A DNA stretch of 33,261 nucleotides from Mycobacteriales bacterium (GTDB lineage: Bacteria; Actinomycetota; Actinomycetes; JAFAQI01). The position numbers and the translations under genes are program-made. The notes below the pieces were generated by a model that did no database searches, was not told the DNA's origin, and saw only the letters and a list, made by a program, of their open reading frames with translations. This document shows, piece after piece, positions 3,902-30,319 of the stretch. Location of the stretch: NCBI GenBank assembly GCA_035550055.1, contig DASZRO010000099.1, forward strand, positions 1 to 33,261, written 5' to 3'. Position 1 is the stretch's first letter. Each line of letters starts with the position of its first letter.

Positions 3902-3974
3902 GCCCCGGTATCCCAACGGCAGAGGAAGCGGACTCAAAACCCGCACAGTGTCGGTTCAAATCCGACCCGGGGCA
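3902..3974 (+). tRNA. tRNA-Leu(CAA), atypical short variable loop
   Basis: A 73-nt cloverleaf. The acceptor GCCCCGG (3902-3908) pairs perfectly with CCGGGGC, followed by discriminator A (3974). The D arm starts TCCC and has GG in its loop. The anticodon arm GCGGA/CCCGC surrounds loop CTCAAAA, giving anticodon CAA (3935-3937). The T arm GTCGG-TTCAAAT-CCGAC is perfect. CCA is not encoded. The anticodon means Leu (UUG codon), but canonical bacterial Leu tRNAs are class II with a long variable arm. Here the variable loop is only ACAGT (3945-3949), a class I size. The last anticodon-stem pair is an A-C mismatch. That it is a tRNA gene is near certain; the amino acid is inferred from the anticodon. 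Confidence 0.88.
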
Positions 3975-3986
3975 CTGCCGCCCCCT

Positions 3987-4067
3987 CGAAGTAGCACACA
4001 ACCCGGCATCAGCTGCGGCTTTCCTGCACGGATGTCCGGTTCCGGATGGAGGTTGTGTGCTACTTCG
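3987..4067 (-). repeat. Palindromic element E1 of the CGAAGTAGCACAC family
   Basis: A perfect 17-bp inverted repeat (3987-4003 with 4051-4067, arm CGAAGTAGCACACAACC) surrounds a 47-nt core. Read on the minus strand, the arm's first 13 nt are followed by 12 nt and then GAACCGGACA, the same spacing as in E2 and E3. Near the far end it shares CGCAGCTG with E2. It begins 11 nt after the gltD stop codon and ends 12 nt from the convergent tRNA, so it could serve as a bidirectional transcript end. No U-tract follows on either strand. The arms are less GC-rich than the surroundings. Confidence 0.85.
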
Positions 4068-4078
4068 GGAAAGTGGGG

Positions 4079-5521
4079 CTAGGCGATCGGGCGGTCGGTG
4101 GGGAGCACCGGTGACGGCAGCTGGGTGTCGCCCATCAGCCAGCGGTCGACCGACGCCGCACAGGCGCGCCCCTCGGCGATCGCCCACACGATGAGCGACT
4201 GCCCGCGGCCCATGTCGCCGCAGACGAACACCCCGTCGCTGTCGGTCATCCACTCACCGTCGCGCGCCACGTTCCCGCGCTGGTCGTAGGACACCCCGAG
4301 CCCGTCGAGCAAGGCGCCCTTCTCCGGGCCGAGGAACCCCATCGCGAGCAGCACCAGCTGTGCCGGCAGCTCCTTCTCGGTGCCCTCGATCGGAGCGAAC
4401 TTCTCGTCGACCTCACTGATCACGAGCCCGGACACCCGGCCGTCGGCGTCGCCGGCGAAGCGCTGCGTCGAGACCGCGTAGATCCGCTCGCCACCCTCTT
4501 CGTGGGCGCTCGACACCCGGTAGATCATCGGGTACGTCGGCCACGGCATGGCTGCCGAGCGCTGCTCCGGCGGCCGTTGCAGGATCTCGAGCTGGGTGAC
4601 TGACTTCGCGCCCTGGCGCAGCGCCGTACCGAGGCAGTCCGCCCCGGTGTCGCCGCCACCGAGGATGATCACGTCCTTGCCGGCGGCTGAGATCGGCGGG
4701 GCGTCGATGTCGCCCTGCTGCACCCGGTTGGCCAACGGCAGGTAGTCCATCGCCGGGTAGATGCCCTTGAGGTCACGACCCGGTACGTCGAGGTCCCGCG
4801 GCACGGTCGACCCGCCGGCGAGCACGATCGCGTCGTGCCGCTTGCGCAGCTGCTCCGCAGTGATGTCGACACCCACGTTCACCCCGGAACGAAAACGAGT
4901 GCCCTCCTCCTCCATCTGCAGCAGCCGCAGGTCGAGGTGACGCTTCTCCATCTTGAACTCGGGGATGCCGTAACGAAGCAGGCCACCGATCCGGTCCGCC
5001 CGCTCGTAGACGACCACCGTGTGCCCGGCGCGGGTGAGCTGCTGCGCGGCGGCCAGACCCGCGGGTCCCGATCCGACGACCCCGACGGTCTTGCCGGACA
5101 GCCGCTCGGCGACCTGCGGCGAGATCCAGCCCTCGTCCCATGCCCGGTCGACGATCTCGACCTCGACCTGCTTGATCGTGACGGGGTCGGAGTTGATGCC
5201 GAGGACGCACGCGCTCTCGCAGGGTGCGGGGCAGAGCCGGCCGGTGAACTCCGGGAAGTTGTTCGTCGCGTGGAGACGTTCGATGGCCTCGCGCCAGTCC
5301 TCGCGCCAGACCAGGTCGTTCCACTCCGGGATCAGGTTGCCCAGCGGGCAGCCCTGGTGACAGAACGGGATCCCGCAGTCCATGCAACGACCGGCCTGCT
5401 TCTGCAGACGCTGTGGGTCGAAGTCCTCGTACACCTCGCGCCAGTCGGAGATCCGTACGTCGACCGGCCGGCGCTTCGGCGTTTCACGGGGGGTGGTCAG
5501 AAAGCCGCGCGGGTCAGCCAT
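4079..5521 (-). CDS. gltD: Glutamate synthase (NADPH) small subunit
   Basis: The beta subunit of bacterial GOGAT passes electrons from NADPH via FAD and iron-sulfur centres to GltB, which makes two glutamates from glutamine and 2-oxoglutarate. It has 480 residues, a normal length. The N-terminus holds the cysteine sets [13 protein letters not shown] and [10 protein letters not shown] (4Fe-4S ligands). Next come the FAD fold [15 protein letters not shown], the NADPH fold [13 protein letters not shown], and a closing FAD contact [22 protein letters not shown]. It starts at ATG 5521, 8 nt inside the end of gltB, so the two are co-translated. E1 follows its stop codon. Confidence 0.96.
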
Positions 5522-15320: not shown

Positions 15321-16840
15321 CGGACCGTGCGGATGGCCTCCGCCGACGCCAACGCGGCCAGCACCGCGGCCGCCTTGTTCCGCGACTCGGTGTCCTCCAT
15401 CGCCGGATCGGAGTCGGCGACGATCCCTGCGCCGGCCTGGACGTAGGCGTGCCCGTCGCGCATCACCACGGTGCGAATCGCCACGGCGGTGTCGAGATCG
15501 CCGGCGACGTCGATGTAGCCGACGACCCCGCCGTACAGGCCTCGCCGCGTGGGTTCCAACGCCTCGATGATCTCCATCGCCCGCACCTTCGGCGCTCCCG
15601 ACAGCGTCCCCGCCGGGAACGTCGCGCTGAGCACGTCGAGTGCGGTGACGTCCGGGCGGACGTCGCACACCACCGTCGAGACCAGATGCATGACGTGCGA
15701 GAACCGTTCGACCGTCATCAGGTCGACGACTTCCACCGTGCCGGGCACCGCGATCCGGCCGAGGTCGTTGCGTCCCAGGTCGACCAGCATGACGTGCTCG
15801 GCGCGTTCCTTGGGATCGGCGAGCAGCTCGGCGGCAAGCGCGGCGTCTGCTTCCGGGGTCGCACCGCGAGGCCGGGTGCCCGCGATCGGATGCATCAACG
15901 CCCGGCCGCCTTCGACCTTGACCAGCGCCTCGGGTGAGGAGCCGACGACGTCGAGGTCGTCGAAGCGGAGCAGGTACATGTACGGCGACGGGTTGCCGGT
16001 CCGCAGCGCGCGGTAGACGTCGAGCGGGTCCGCCGAGCAGTCGGTCTCGAACCGCTGCGACACCACGATCTGGAAGCAGTCACCGGCCCGGATGTGCTCC
16101 TTGGCGGTTTCGACCGCCGCCATGTACTCCTCGCGCGTCGACCGCTCCCGGTAGGCCGGCACCTGGGAGCTCGTCAGCGTCGCCACCGACGGCTCCGCCG
16201 CCTTGGCGAGGTCCGCCGTCATCGCGTCCAGCCGGGCGACCGCCTCGTCGTACGCCGACCCCGGGTCGTCGTCCGCGTGCGGCGTCAGCCCGTGAATGAC
16301 GTTGGCCACCAACAGGATCGAACCGTCACGGTGGTCGACGACCGCCATGTCGGTGGCGAGCAGGAAGTGCAGCTCGGGCATCTTCAGGTCGTCCTCGGCG
16401 ATGACCGGGAGTCGCTCGATCCGCCGCACCGTGTCGTGGCCCATGTAGCCGACGAGCCCGCAGGTCAGCGGCGGCAGGTCCGGGTTGCGCGGCGTGTGCA
16501 ACCGCGCCGCCGCGTCGTGGAGTGCCTCGAGCGGGTCGTCGGGGTGATCGTCCGGGCCGATGCCGGTCCAGACCGCGTGGCCGTCGCGCTCCGACAGCGA
16601 CGCGGCGGACTGGACGCCGATGAACGAGTACCGCGCCCACACCCCGCCGTGCTCCGCCGACTCGAGCAGGAAGGTGCCGGGCCGCCCCGCGGCCAGCTTG
16701 CGATAGGCGCTGATCGGGGTTTCTGCGTCAGCAAGCACCCGTCGTACGACGGGGACCACCCGGTCGCCGGCGATGGCGGCGAGGAACCCGTCGCGATCCG
16801 GACGTGTGACGCCGTCCGGACGCGAGCCGGCCGCTGTCAC
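15317..16840 (-). CDS. trpE: Anthranilate synthase component I
   Basis: Converts chorismate to anthranilate with ammonia supplied by TrpG, which is not in the window. It has 507 residues. The N-terminal tryptophan feedback site LLES is at 58-61, inside [20 protein letters not shown]. The chorismate-binding core shows [27 protein letters not shown] and [21 protein letters not shown]. There is no amidotransferase fusion. Start GTG 16840 overlaps the hisI stop (GTGA), which joins His and Trp synthesis in one translation chain. Further in-frame codons upstream lie within hisI and lack an RBS. Confidence 0.95.
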
Positions 16841-17217
16841 GCCGGCGGTTCGCCGACGACGGCGTCGAGCACGTCGGCGTCGAAGCAACGACGGTCGCCG
16901 GTGTGGCAGGCCGCACCGACCTGGTCCACCGACACCAGGACGGTGTCCGCGTCGCAGTCGAGCGCGACGGCCTTCACCCACTGCTGGTGCCCGGACGTGT
17001 CGCCCTTGACCCAGTACTCACCCCGGCTGCGGCTCCAGTAGGTGCAGCGCCCGGTGGTCAGCGTGCGGTGCAGCGCCTCGTCGTCCATCCAGCCGACCAT
17101 CAGCACCTCACCGGTGTCCCACTGCTGGGCCACCGCGGCGATCAGGCCGTTGTCGTCGCGCTTGAGGCGCGCCGCGATGGCCGGGTCGAGCGAGGACGGA
17201 CGGGCCGGACCAGACAT
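16837..17217 (-). CDS. hisI: Phosphoribosyl-AMP cyclohydrolase
   Basis: Opens the adenine ring of PR-AMP, the third step of histidine synthesis; a Zn/Mg enzyme of 126 residues. Metal ligands are visible: D87, C88, D89 and D91 in ALDCDADT, and C104 and C111 in [12 protein letters not shown]. The core [17 protein letters not shown] is intact. It has the cyclohydrolase domain only; the HisE pyrophosphohydrolase is absent here. Start ATG 17217 gives the typical [15 protein letters not shown] 17247 is in frame, but neither has a strong RBS. The upstream gap to hisF contains element E2, so its translation cannot be coupled to hisF. Confidence 0.94.
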
Positions 17218-17253
17218 GCCCCCATTGTGCCGGGTCGCGCCATCCACTTTTTA

Positions 17254-17357
17254 CTGACCCGAAGTAGCACACAACCGCCCGACGCCAGCTGCGATATGGC
17301 GCCGCGTGTGGCGCCGTGTCCGTTTCGTTGCGGACAACGTGTGCTACTTCGAGTCAG
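17254..17357 (-). repeat. Palindromic element E2 of the CGAAGTAGCACAC family
   Basis: Core element 17260-17351 (92 bp): arm CGAAGTAGCACAC (17260-17272) pairs with 17339-17351, and after one mismatch the stem continues for 5 more pairs (CTGAC/GTCAG, 17254-17258 with 17353-17357). Two inner hairpins are visible: TGTCCG/CGGACA (17317-17322 with 17331-17336) and GGCGCC/GGCGCC (17298-17303 with 17310-17315). Minus-strand order is arm, 12 nt, GAAACGGACA, as in E1 and E3. The hisF stop codon (17354-17356) lies in the outer stem. It lies between hisF and hisI, and is followed by A-rich rather than U-rich sequence. Confidence 0.85.
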
Positions 17358-18124
17358 CGGACCTCGTTGCCGGCGGTACGAAGGGCGGCCTTCACCTCGC
17401 CGATCGTCAGCGTGCCGAAGTGGAAGACGCTGGCGGCGAGGACGGCGTCGGCGCCGGCCGCGACCGGCGGCGGGAAGTCCGCGACCTTTCCGGCGCCTCC
17501 CGAAGCGATCAACGGGACCGTCACGACCCGGCGTACGGCTTCCACCATCGCCACGTCGAAGCCGGTCGTCGTACCGTCGGCGTCCATCGAGTTGAGCAGG
17601 ATCTCGCCGACGCCGAGCTCCTCGCCGCGGGCCGCCCACTCGACCGCGTCGATGCCGGTGCCCTGGCGCCCCCCGTGCGTCGTCACCTCGTAGCCGCTGG
17701 CGGTCCGCGTCGCGCCCTGGGTACGCCGGGCGTCCACCGACAGCACGAGCACCTGGTTGCCGAACCGCTGCGCAATCTCCTGCAACAGCTCAGGGCGGGC
17801 GATCGCCGCGGTGTTCACGCCGACCTTGTCCGCCCCGGCGCGCAGCAACCGGTCGACGTCATCGACGCTGCGCACCCCGCCGCCCACAGTCAACGGGATG
17901 AAGACCTGCTCCGCGGTACGCCGGACCACGTCGTAGGTCGTCTCCCGGTCCCCGCTCGACGCGGTGATGTCGAGAAACACCAGCTCGTCGGCGCCCTCCC
18001 GGTCGTAACGCGCCGCCAGCTCCACCGGGTCACCGGCGTCGCGCAGGTCGCGGAAGTTGACGCCCTTCACCACCCGGCCCGCGTCGACGTCGAGGCACGG
18101 GATCACCCGAACGGCGACACTCAC
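17354..18124 (-). CDS. hisF: Imidazole glycerol phosphate synthase, cyclase subunit
   Basis: Cyclase half of the HisF-HisH enzyme. It uses ammonia from HisH to turn PRFAR into IGP and AICAR. It has 256 residues and a TIM barrel. The catalytic aspartates are D12 ([14 protein letters not shown]) and D131 (LSVDARR). The phosphate-binding loops LTVGGGVRS and LIASGGAGK are present. GTG 18124 has GGAGG about 5 nt upstream. It lies 27 nt after priA and its stop codon is buried in the stem of E2. Confidence 0.96.
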
Positions 18125-18151
18125 CCGTCCTCCACCCGACGGCGCAGCCGG

Positions 18152-18892
18152 CTACACCGGCGCATCGTGCACAGCCGCGAGCGCTTCGGGCAGCGTGAAG
18201 GCGCCGGCGTAGAGCGCCTTCCCGACGATCGCGCCCTCGACGCCGACCTCGACCAGTCCCGCGATCGCCCGCAGGTCCTCGAGGCTGCTCACCCCGCCGC
18301 TGGCGATGACCGGTCGGTCGGTCGCCGCGCACACCTCACGCAGCAGGTCGAGATTCGGGCCGGTCAGCGTCCCGTCCCGGCGTACGTCGGTGACGACGTA
18401 ACGGGCGCACCCGTCCGCGTCGAGGCGAGCCAGTACGTCGAACAGCTCGCCCCCGTCCTTGGTCCATCCCCGCGCCGACAGCGTCGTACCGCGCACGTCC
18501 AGCCCGACCGCGATCCGGTCGCCGTACCGAGCGATCGCCGTACGCACCCACTCGGGCTGCTCGAGCGCGGCGGTGCCGATGTTCACCCGGGCGCACCCGG
18601 TGCCCAGCGCCGCCTCGAGGGATGCGTCGTCACGGATGCCGCCGGAGAGCTCCACCGCAACGTCGAGGCGGCCGACCACCTCAGCGATCAGTTCGCGGTT
18701 CGAGCCTCGGCCGAAAGCGGCGTCGAGATCGACGAGATGCAACCACTGCGCGCCGCCGTCCTGCCATGCGAGCGCAGCGTCGAGCGGTGCGCCGTACGCG
18801 GTCTGCGAGCCGGCCTCGCCTTGCACCAGACGGACCGCCTGGCCGTCGGCGACATCGACGGCGGGCAGCAGGACCAGCGGTGCGGTGCTCAC
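18152..18892 (-). CDS. priA: Bifunctional HisA/TrpF isomerase PriA
   Basis: One TIM barrel catalysing two Amadori isomerisations, ProFAR in histidine and PRA in tryptophan synthesis; 246 residues. HisA-type catalytic acids are D13 ([15 protein letters not shown]) and D132 (GLDVRG). PriA-specific features are R21 and the RGW motif (R141, W143) in [15 protein letters not shown], with the second-site Asp D173 in [10 protein letters not shown]. The absence of trpF from the trp cluster supports the double role. GTG 18892 overlaps the hisH stop (GTGA). Dual activity is inferred from these residues and from known actinobacterial PriA. Confidence 0.92.
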
Positions 18893-19503: not shown

Positions 19504-20091
19504 CTAGAGAACGCCTTTGGTCGACGGCACGCCGACCGAGCGAGGATCGAGCGAGACCGCGTCGCGCAGTGCGCGAGCGACCGCCTTGAACTGTGCTTCG
19601 ACGATATGGTGCGCGTTGCGCCCACCGAGCACACGGACGTGCAAGCAGATCTGCGCACTCGACACCATCGACTCCCAGATGTGCCGGGTGAGCGTCGTGT
19701 CATAAGTACCGATCAGCTCGACCAGCGGCGGCTCGTCGTGGACGAGGTACGGCCGGCCCGACACGTCGACCACCGCGTGCGCCAGCGCCTCGTCGAGGGG
19801 TACGAACGCGTCGGCGAACCGGCGGATGCCGGCCTTGTCCCCCAGGGCCTCACGCAGGGCCTGGCCGATCGCGATCGCGGTGTCCTCGACGGTGTGGTGC
19901 GCGTCGACCTCGAGATCGCCGACCGTCTTCACCGTCAGGTCGATCCCGCCGTGCTTGGACAGCTGAGCCAGCATGTGGTCGTAGAACGGGACCCCGGTCG
20001 AGATCTCGTTGATCCCGGTGCCGTCGAGATCGAGCGACACCGAGACCTGCGACTCCTTGGTCGAACGCTCGACCTTCCCGGTTCGTGCCAT
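19504..20091 (-). CDS. hisB: Imidazoleglycerol-phosphate dehydratase
   Basis: Dehydrates IGP to imidazole acetol phosphate, a manganese enzyme; 195 residues, dehydratase domain only (no HisN-like phosphatase fusion). The two metal-binding His motifs are HHTVED (65-70) and HHIVEAQFK (161-169). ATG 20091 has GGAGA and AAGGGA close upstream. A 119-nt gap with element E3 separates it from hisC, while hisH follows 3 nt later. Confidence 0.96.
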
Positions 20092-20111: not shown

Positions 20112-20195
20112 CCGAAGTAGCACACGAAGTCCTTATCGGTGCCCCGATACCGCCCCGATCGTCCGATTCGGCGGGGAGGTTGTGTGCTACTTCGG
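20112..20195 (-). repeat. Palindromic element E3 of the CGAAGTAGCACAC family
   Basis: A perfect 14-bp inverted repeat (20112-20125 with 20182-20195, arm CCGAAGTAGCACAC) encloses a 56-nt core. On the minus strand the core begins AACCTCC as in E1, and 12 nt after the 13-nt arm comes GAATCGGACG, the same position as in E1 and E2. An inner hairpin TATCGG/CCGATA (20134-20139 with 20144-20149) is perfect. TTTTT precedes the element on the transcript strand, which is the wrong side for an intrinsic terminator. It lies between hisC and hisB. Confidence 0.85.
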
Positions 20196-20210: not shown

Positions 20211-22572
<2,362 letters not shown>

Positions 22573-28606: not shown

Positions 28607-29461
28607 GTGCCCAGCTCACGCCTGCTCGCCCAGTCCCGGGTGTTCGTGGCGTGCCTGGCGCTGGCGATCGTCGGCGTCGTCGGGCTCGGCCTGACCGCCG
28701 TCGCCACCCAGCCGGCGACCGCCTCCAGCAACGGCACCACCGCGGCCGACCCGACTCCGCCCGACGGCGGGAACCCCGGGCAGCGGCTGCTCAACTGGTC
28801 CGGGATCACCTGGCTGGTCTACCCGAACTGCCCGATCTGCGGCCCGGAGCACACTGCGACGACGAACGCCGCCCGCGCCGTCTACGTCGACCGGCGGGGC
28901 TGGCTGCACCTGGCGGTGTCCAAGATCGACGGCCGCTGGAGCGGGGTGGAGCTGCGGGCGCTCACCCAGGCGCCCTACGGCACCTATCGCTGGGTCGTGA
29001 ACAGCGCGACGGCCGACATGGACCCGTGGGCCGTGCTCGGCATGTTCGTCTACCGCCCCGGCACCGCCAAGCTGACCAACGAGATCGACGTCGAGGACTC
29101 CCGGTTCCCGCACCTGCTGCGGGCGCCCGACAACGCCCAGTTCACGGTTCAGCCGTACAACGTCGCGGGCAACCAGCACGGCTACTACATCAGCTCGGAC
29201 TACCACCCGCTCGTCCAGCAGTTCACCTGGAGCCCGGCGTTCGGCTCCGAGACGCACGGCTCGGTCCAGTTCGAGACGCGCGTCGGTACCACCGAGCGGT
29301 CGCCGTTGCTGGCACGCTTCAGCTACGGGGGCTACGCGGTGCCCACCTCGACGAACATGCAGCTGTTCGTGGTGTTGTGGATGAACAAGAACCACACGCC
29401 GACGACCGGCACGCATTCCGCGGTGATCCGCAATCTCAGCATCCAACCGCTAGGGGGTTGA
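28607..29461 (+). CDS. Secreted GH16-like protein A
   Basis: A 284-residue exported protein. The N-terminus is a signal peptide (RVFVACLALAIVGVVGLGLT, then ATQPATASS), followed by a Pro/Gly linker and a concanavalin-like domain (about 64-282). It carries the glycoside hydrolase 16 catalytic pattern E-x-D-x-E at E159, D161 and E163 (NEIDVEDSRF), plus the downstream YHPLVQQFTWSP strand typical of the family. The GH16 substrate (beta-glucan, galactan or other) is unknown. A CPIC pair (75-78) near the domain start is absent from the paralogue downstream and may form a disulfide. GTG 28607 was chosen for the signal peptide and the -10 box just upstream. It diverges from dnaE. Confidence 0.8.
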   Translation: MPSSRLLAQSRVFVACLALAIVGVVGLGLTAVATQPATASSNGTTAADPTPPDGGNPGQRLLNWSGITWLVYPNCPICGPEHTATTNAARAVYVDRRGWLHLAVSKIDGRWSGVELRALTQAPYGTYRWVVNSATADMDPWAVLGMFVYRPGTAKLTNEIDVEDSRFPHLLRAPDNAQFTVQPYNVAGNQHGYYISSDYHPLVQQFTWSPAFGSETHGSVQFETRVGTTERSPLLARFSYGGYAVPTSTNMQLFVVLWMNKNHTPTTGTHSAVIRNLSIQPLGG

Positions 29462-29467
29462 CCGGAA

Positions 29468-30319
29468 GTGCCCAGCCGCTTTCGCGCCGCGAGACCGCGC
29501 GCACTCCGATGGCTTGCCGGCATCGTCGCTCTCGGCACGCTCACCGCGGGCACCACGGCGCTGGCAGCGACGCCGCCGGGATCCGCTCAGCCGGGGCGGA
29601 CGGCCCACCTCGTGAGGAGCCCCGGTCCGTCCGGGACGCTGTTCCCGAGCCAGATCACCTGGTCGGGCTTCGCCTGGACGGTCTCGGCGAACGGCACCGA
29701 AGGGCCCGAGAACGACCGGCTGACGAACTCGTCGAACGCGGTGTACGTCGACAGCCGCGGTCGGCTCCACCTCAACATCGTCCAGCTCCAGGGATCGTGG
29801 CGCTCCGTCGAGCTGCGGTCGGCCTATCCGGTCAGCTACGGGCGCTACCGCCTGGTCATCGACACGGCCACCGGCGGCTTCTCCGACCGCACGGTCTTCG
29901 GGATGTTCGTCTACCGGCCCCACGCCCCGAAGTACACGAACGAGATCGACGTCGAGAACTCCCGGTTCCCGAACTACCTGCCGGCTCCCGACAACGCCCA
30001 GTTCGCGGTCCAGCCCTACAAGCCGGCGGGACACGAACACCACTACTACGTGAAGCCGTCCTACCACCCGCTGTTCGAGGAGTTCACCTGGTACCCGCCC
30101 TCCGGCGGCAAGGACAGCAAGGGGACGGTCGCGTTCCAGACCCGGGTCGGCGCCACTCCGCACTCGCGGCTGCTGACCCGCTGGAAGTACTACGGCGAGA
30201 GCGACCCGACGAGCCAGCACATGTACCTCTACCTCACGCTGTGGCTCAACCACGGGCTGCCGCCCGTGCACGGCACGCACTCGATCATCCTGCGTTCGTT
30301 GCGGTTCAAGGCGGTCTGA
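29468..30319 (+). CDS. Secreted GH16-like protein B, tandem paralogue
   Basis: A 283-residue exported protein, a clear duplicate of its neighbour. The two share AVYVD-RG-LHL, GMFVYRP, TNEIDVE-SRFP, APDNAQF-VQPY and GTHS, with no length change across the core. The signal peptide is RALRWLAGIVALGTLTAGTTALAA minus its last residues. The catalytic residues E159, D161 and E163 fall at exactly the same numbers as in protein A. It lacks the CPIC pair. GTG 29468 is 6 nt after the upstream stop, so the two genes are co-translated. It converges on the unknown gene at 30339. Confidence 0.8.
   Translation: MPSRFRAARPRALRWLAGIVALGTLTAGTTALAATPPGSAQPGRTAHLVRSPGPSGTLFPSQITWSGFAWTVSANGTEGPENDRLTNSSNAVYVDSRGRLHLNIVQLQGSWRSVELRSAYPVSYGRYRLVIDTATGGFSDRTVFGMFVYRPHAPKYTNEIDVENSRFPNYLPAPDNAQFAVQPYKPAGHEHHYYVKPSYHPLFEEFTWYPPSGGKDSKGTVAFQTRVGATPHSRLLTRWKYYGESDPTSQHMYLYLTLWLNHGLPPVHGTHSIILRSLRFKAV

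Follow-up and report, generated by a model that had tools for sequence, protein, structure and literature searches.

Palindromic elements of fixed length and their probable partner, an AbiEi-Vsr nuclease, in an actinobacterial genome

The three intergenic palindromes E1, E2 and E3 in the stretch of DNA analysed here (33,261 nucleotides, contig C99 of a draft Mycobacteriales genome, hereafter the window) probably belong to a family of about 50 copies that is the cognate repeat family of an AbiEi-Vsr nuclease, REPIN-like and non-autonomous. The copies are fixed in length, conserved in their arms and in part specific to one species in the sites they occupy; two of them flank the nuclease gene, and comparable pairs recur in Actinobacteria, with arms that co-vary with the nuclease. 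The pairing of nuclease and repeat is in itself very likely, and we give an even chance to the mobilisation of the elements by the nuclease.

Three palindromic elements in the window

A search of the window with the arm CGAAGTAGCACAC delimited E1 (3987 to 4067, minus strand, 81 nt), E2 (17260 to 17351, minus strand, 92 nt, of the long length class) and E3 (20113 to 20194, minus strand, 82 nt). The arm has exactly six exact matches in the window, which are the two ends of the three elements: 3987 to 3999, 17260 to 17272 and 20113 to 20125 on the plus strand and, as the same sequence on the minus strand, 4055 to 4067, 17339 to 17351 and 20182 to 20194. All of these 13-nt arms are perfect. With two mismatches allowed, any of 100 dinucleotide shuffles contained at most three arm matches, and in the whole 3.54-Mb genome the arm has 96 exact matches versus none for the reversed control pattern, which bears out the view of the initial annotation that the recurrence is not due to chance.

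The common architecture described there, namely the arm, 12 nt and then GAANCGGACR on the minus strand, was recovered in E1, E2 and E3; in E1, inspection of the sequence places the motif, as GAACCGGACA, at 4033 to 4042 (minus strand), 12 nt inward of the arm. The identical spacing that had been claimed is true of arm, interval and motif in all three elements but not of the total lengths, E2 representing a second class of 92 nt. Similarly, GAANCGGACR is common in the family but not universal, being absent or shifted in, for example, loci L025, L043, L048 and L050 and in the majority of the 82-nt elements found in the sister species, and CGCAGCTG, which E1 and E2 do have in common, is not a family feature.

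E1 lies between a tRNA gene (3902 to 3974, plus strand) and a gltD-type gene (4079 to 5521, minus strand), the stop codon of which is 11 nt from the element. E2 is situated in the gap between hisF (17354 to 18124, minus strand) and hisI (16837 to 17247, minus strand), 2 nt from the hisF stop codon, and E3 in the gap between hisC (20211 to 21296, minus strand) and hisB (approximately 19504 to 20091, minus strand), 16 nt from the hisC stop codon. An Rfam search of the window returned nothing above the gathering score except the tRNA. Elsewhere in the window, two adjacent and similar predicted secreted proteins (28607 to 29461 and 29468 to 30319) are tandem paralogues with no assigned role.

A genome-wide family with quantised length and near-invariant arms

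The source genome (G000) is a draft of 122 contigs with 98.75% completeness, and the sister genome (G005) is a draft Frankiaceae MAG with 92% completeness. A covariance model built from 57 copies recovered 50 intact elements in the source genome and 18 in the sister, each found on both strands. The initial annotation had stated in advance that a count of three would speak against a family; the count of 50 instead agrees with its description of a dispersed, intergenic palindromic family that is not a classic GTAG REP. The covariance model that it had proposed yielded the copies; covariation within the family extends over the 17-bp arm only.

The lengths are sharply quantised. The source genome contains elements of 81 nt (30 copies), 82 nt (18), 83 nt (one) and 92 nt (one), and the sister species elements of 82 nt (10), 91 nt (five) and 92 nt (three), so that every copy measures 81 to 83 or 91 to 92 nt, with a step of 10 nt that equals one helical turn. 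As the family has only two length classes, helical phasing of the length is suggestive rather than proven.

Across the 68 copies of the two species, arm positions 1 to 13 carry nine substitutions in 1768 positions, with a mean identity of 99.1%. While the arms are near-invariant, the interiors are close to unalignable, with a median identity of 65% within the source genome and 60% between the species, compared with 58% for shuffled sequences. All 17 bp of the arms pair. The changes on both sides at positions 16 and 17 may be due in part to subfamilies, one species having AAC and the other AAAGT. No mirror covariation was found inward of position 17 or in the flanks. No consistent interior fold was detected either, as RNAalifold supports the arms only and the folds of single copies disagree, and a structured RNA was ruled out as the identity of the elements on this basis.

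Decayed arms are rare: 211 matches were obtained with up to two mismatches, of which 96 are exact, and approximately 99 are expected from the control. This near absence of decayed copies implies that mobility alone is insufficient, and that selection on each copy or homogenisation is therefore also needed. The inner borders of the arms (AACC, AACGT, AACT, GAAGT, AAGT and AAAGC) form a small vocabulary that is combined almost freely across the two sides of an element, and this mixing looks as if half-elements recombine. Contigs C13, C68, C80, C98, C108, C113 and C118 end within approximately 500 nt of an element copy, and assembly breaks in the draft may therefore hide further copies.

In a collection of 84,980 species, the exact paired arms were found in one other species only. 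A related set of at least 18 copies, also hit by the covariance model, is present in another genus of the same family (G006). The copies that were read there measure 91 to 92 nt and have arms CGTTTCAGCACACAAC, which retain the core AGCACACAAC and are altered in the outer part on both sides together. The paired inner core of the arm has 28, 3 and 18 matches in the three genomes and is absent from all 391 other genomes of the class (3 of 394 in all). A change common to all of the arms of one family points to a reader acting in trans. On contig C24 of the other genus, two tandem elements about 30 nt apart (L119, 1501 and 1623) have the same outer parts and different centres.

An AbiEi-Vsr nuclease gene enclosed by two elements

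In all three genomes, two elements approximately 1.03 to 1.06 kb apart enclose the same gene, encoding an AbiEi-DUF559 nuclease, which is the only gene found between them. In the source genome this cognate nuclease gene is single-copy (contig C30, bases 17457 to 18311), and the orthologues from the other two genomes are 69% and 56% identical to its product. These proteins match the AbiEi, DUF559 and MTES_1575 nuclease families, some of the matches being below the Pfam cut-offs, and an NCBIfam search returned no specific family for the nuclease. The genes on either side of the element-gene-element cassette of the sister have a single element and no nuclease gene between them on contig C113 of the source genome, with a flank that is 81.7% identical over 2 kb.

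The C30 protein consists of an AbiEi-like module (residues 1 to 177) followed by a PD-(D/E)XK domain of the Vsr/homing-endonuclease type (residues 181 to 285). In its AlphaFold2 model (pLDDT 91.6), residues 1 to 177 resemble the AbiEi antitoxin 6y8q (Z 12.3, rmsd 6.9), and residues 180 to 285 resemble the catalytic domain of I-Bth0305I (3r3p; Z 13.4, rmsd 2.2), NGO0050 (3hrl; Z 12.6) and Vsr (1cw0; Z 11.3). Sequence profiles also recover the same nucleases as the structure search. Among the acidic residues of the nuclease domain, E185, D218 and E229 are invariant and D231 nearly so.

The initial annotation had pointed to REP/RAYT elements on account of the GTAG that the elements contain. This hint was not borne out: Y1_Tnp (PF01797) gave no match at E values up to 1 in the source and sister drafts, in a search that was positive in E. 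coli and other genomes, and the GTAG is paired within the stem. A GTAG REP/RAYT system was rejected, as PF01797 is absent from both drafts.

The two 23-bp inverted repeats bound by AbiEi are separated by 3 bp, and the repeats of the pairs bound by Rv2827c by 13 bp (PMC7319586). The spacings of these two proteins differ by 10 bp (PMC7319586), and the length classes of the present elements differ by a like step. Considering the predicted fold together with the published work on AbiEi, binding of the AbiEi-type module to the arms appears plausible.

The nuclease could instead be an enzyme directed against invaders, with the palindromes acting as decoys, self-marks or sensing sites. Its PD-(D/E)XK domain and the match of the PADLOC AbiEi models to its N-terminal part (E 1.6e-16) fit such a defence role; however, the PADLOC match is confined to the common AbiEi module, no partner toxin or methylase was identified, and within one genome the private palindromes differ from paralogue to paralogue, which would be odd for a common self-mark. 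We consider a role in defence or self-recognition decidedly unlikely, and favour the nuclease as the partner of a repeat family.

Placement at gene ends and occupancy of sites

The open reading frames were predicted using a codon model that had been trained on the window genes, and the gene ends given here are therefore approximate. Among the 65 intervals that contain an element, the neighbouring genes are convergent in 28 and divergent in six. At 29 of the 89 neighbouring gene 3' ends, the reading frame stops at the TAG of the arm (CGAAG-TAG), and a further 33 of the 89 lie no more than 17 nt away. The earlier statement that none of the elements encodes a protein thus needs a footnote, because the arm TAG doubles as the stop codon of the adjoining reading frame at those 29 ends.

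The position of 62 of the 89 gene 3' ends inside an arm or within 17 nt of one, and the ability of every copy to fold as RNA (about -32 to -54 kcal/mol), are what would be expected if the elements were RNA 3'-end structures, such as bidirectional terminators or stabilisers, that are under selection for their folding and have only an incidental link to the nuclease. However, the elements have no U-tract and no consistent interior fold, the sequence of the arm is fixed rather than just its pairing and changes as a set between genera, and the association of nucleases with palindromes is far above the control (see below). Selection for RNA folding is accordingly judged very unlikely as the explanation, and the reading as a nuclease-associated repeat family is retained.

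The initial annotation had suggested a search for empty sites in relatives, and such a comparison found E2 and E3 to be missing from the his operons of relatives. The gap between hisF and hisI measures 0 to 61 nt in seven relatives of other genera and is a rearranged interval of 1.7 kb in the sister. For hisC and hisB, the gap is 28 nt long in the sister and 629 nt long in one other relative (L092), and four more relatives have a gap of 0 nt. Since the his gaps of the relatives are compact, E2 and E3 look like additions in the source lineage. The E1 site, on the other hand, is also occupied in the sister, with flanks that are 83.5% identical over 2.8 kb and an interior that is 67% identical, near the 95th percentile of shuffled sequences, and two more sites are occupied in both species with unlike interiors (L042/L066 and L025/L068). 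Such shared sites count against mobility, as mobile elements share sites only by descent or through strong preference. The comparison of the two species covered selected loci, and at these the flanks were too diverged for a target-site duplication or a clean empty site to be made out.

A further possibility is that the elements are operators. The AbiEi-nuclease would use the flanking copies to repress the gene that encodes it, and selection would maintain the copies dispersed elsewhere as sites of a regulon or of chromosome organisation. AbiEi proteins are autorepressors that bind inverted-repeat pairs (PMC7319586), all copies have conserved arms and decayed ones are few, and some sites are occupied in both species. 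Nevertheless, the clustering of copies at gene 3' ends, shown by the gene orientations above, is the wrong placement for promoters, E2 and E3 lie within the his operon in the source species only, and the copy number differs almost threefold between the sister species. We regard operators as an unlikely explanation.

The flanks of the elements are pyrimidine-rich on the left and purine-rich on the right, with no direct repeats seen. This last observation bears on the idea that the elements are MITEs of a DDE transposase yet to be identified, with the AbiEi-nuclease as a passenger or bystander. MITEs would likewise be short and dispersed, with terminal inverted repeats and species-specific insertions, but they would leave flanking direct repeats, and that idea does not account for the nuclease as the only gene between element ends in all three genomes or for the co-variation of arms with the nuclease across many genomes. 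MITEs of this kind are thus most improbable, and a family served by the nuclease remains our preferred reading.

Comparison with known systems and a possible mechanism

The arrangement resembles the REPIN/REP-RAYT systems (REPtron) of Pseudomonas and enterobacteria (PMC3116915, PMC3733652) in having a variable spacer of set length between two highly conserved, inverted ends, in its dispersed copies placed between or downstream of genes, and in its single-copy nuclease gene that is flanked by copies and paired with a family-specific repeat. In a REPIN, two invariant 16-mers enclose a spacer, the length of which is important (PMC3116915). The present arrangement differs in that no Y1/HUH RAYT gene was found and its enzyme, a fusion of AbiEi and Vsr, has an unrelated fold, and in that the halves are not short stem-loops footed by GTAG; here the GTAG lies in the 17-bp arm and pairs with CTAC of the opposite arm, and there is no conserved short stem-loop after it. 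The system thus works like REPIN-RAYT but is not a member, a cautious label to be kept until mobilisation is shown. It might also be classed as a separate kind, because its class of enzyme and its reading of DNA are unrelated to those of HUH transposases.

With the type IV AbiE toxin-antitoxin antitoxins AbiEi and Rv2827c (6y8q and 1zel; PMC7319586), the nuclease shares the AbiEi fold in its N-terminal 177 residues; unlike in those proteins, the module is here part of a fusion with a nuclease, and inverted pairs exist in tens of dispersed copies as well as on both sides of the gene. Its C-terminal domain has the fold of Vsr (1cw0) and I-Bth0305I (3r3p) (Z 11 to 13, rmsd about 2 Å) and their conserved PD-(D/E)XK acidic residues, but is joined to a different DNA-binding module and has palindromic repeats as its partner rather than an intron or Dcm mismatch repair. 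MITEs, ERIC, Correia and other intergenic palindromes are also short, palindromic, non-coding and dispersed, whereas the present elements show no target-site duplication, are sharply quantised in length and have a partner enzyme that is not a DDE transposase. Integron attC sites were rejected as well, the arms being perfect repeats of 13 to 17 bp without R'/R'' cores and the copies being dispersed singly over many contigs without arrays.

We envisage that two AbiEi modules would bind the two inverted arms of one element as an inverted operator pair, which would require a defined helical distance between the arms, with overall lengths of 81/82 or 91/92 nt that differ by one turn. Binding to the arms would bring the nuclease domains onto the element, where nicking or cutting might permit copying of the palindrome, its excision or its insertion; we infer both the cleavage and the copying step. 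Spread would be mainly to gene 3' ends, where the damage would be least and where the arm TAG could close the reading frame. The elements would then be passengers of the resident nuclease, which would evolve along with their arms.

Recurrence of nuclease-palindrome pairs in Actinomycetes

DUF559 homologues were found in 89 of 118 sampled genomes of the class, and a single genome may have as many as 14. A palindrome with an arm of at least 15 bp within 450 nt of the gene was present at 34 of 53 nuclease loci versus six of 352 control windows taken from his loci, a control rate that is rough because the windows overlap; at the other 19 loci there was no long-arm palindrome by the 15-bp criterion. 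Under a strict two-sided rule, with matching palindromes on both sides, the figures were 16 of 53 loci and nine of 352 windows; here the contrast is weaker than in the single-sided test because short GC-rich repeats pass the strict rule. The similarity of the arms, hand-picked from the best palindrome of each locus before the test, correlated with that of the nucleases (Mantel r 0.60, p 0.0002, n = 34), compared with r -0.10 for the reversed-arm control. Arms are alike between orthologues and different between paralogues of one genome.

Two further families illustrate this pairing. The second, CACAAACGT...ACGTTTGTG, has eight copies in the source genome (contigs C17, C18, C26, C55, C95 and C108; loci L170, L172 and L174 to L179) and three in the sister, all 71 nt in length, and two copies per genome flank a second AbiEi-DUF559 gene (C18, 135225 to 136046, in the source genome). 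The third, GTT-GAGTGCGACG...CGTCGCACTC-AAC, has 36 copies of 55 to 57 nt, spread over six genomes that belong to three other genera (L204 to L219; G002 to G004 and G007 to G009), with paired changes along its stem; it has no copies in five genomes with other arms, and its distribution follows the matching nuclease clade.

These data suggest that a kind of small mobile DNA which seems not to have been described is widespread across Actinobacteria. In the open-licence PMC literature, where DUF559 is mentioned in 14 papers, titles, abstracts and term counts showed no link between DUF559 and repeats, and an earlier description may exist. The broader proposal is that the AbiEi-Vsr (DUF559) nucleases are the enzymes of class-wide mobile systems of Actinobacteria, each made up of a palindrome family and a nuclease and unrelated in mechanism to HUH/RAYT and DDE systems. 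Each paralogue would own and co-evolve with a private palindrome family of fixed length, which AbiEi modules would read as a helically phased inverted pair; we hold this proposal to be evenly poised between right and wrong. DUF559 is abundant in Actinobacteria and is listed by Pfam as a domain of unknown function, for which a private palindrome family per protein would offer a concrete, testable substrate. The REP-RAYT arrangement would also have a second and non-homologous counterpart, in a phylum without reported GTAG REPs (the survey of GTAG repeats names no Actinobacteria; PMC3733652). A class of intergenic palindromes in high-GC genomes that has so far lacked an explanation, with some members that give their neighbours stop codons, would be accounted for as well.

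At positions 541 to 610 of L044 (contig C68), a lone, unpaired arm of the first family runs into a different palindrome of about 62 nt (GAGCCCAACGATATTGGTCACTC...) and not into a transposase, and an IS end was rejected for this arm. The GAGCCCAACGATATTGGTCACTC palindrome resembles the arms beside the DUF559 gene of L163 and probably represents a fourth family. In L193, from another family of the class, 62-nt palindromes at 1423 to 1484 and 2416 to 2477, with arms of 29 to 31 bp (GAGCAGACG...AAAGCCCCC), enclose a DUF559 gene.
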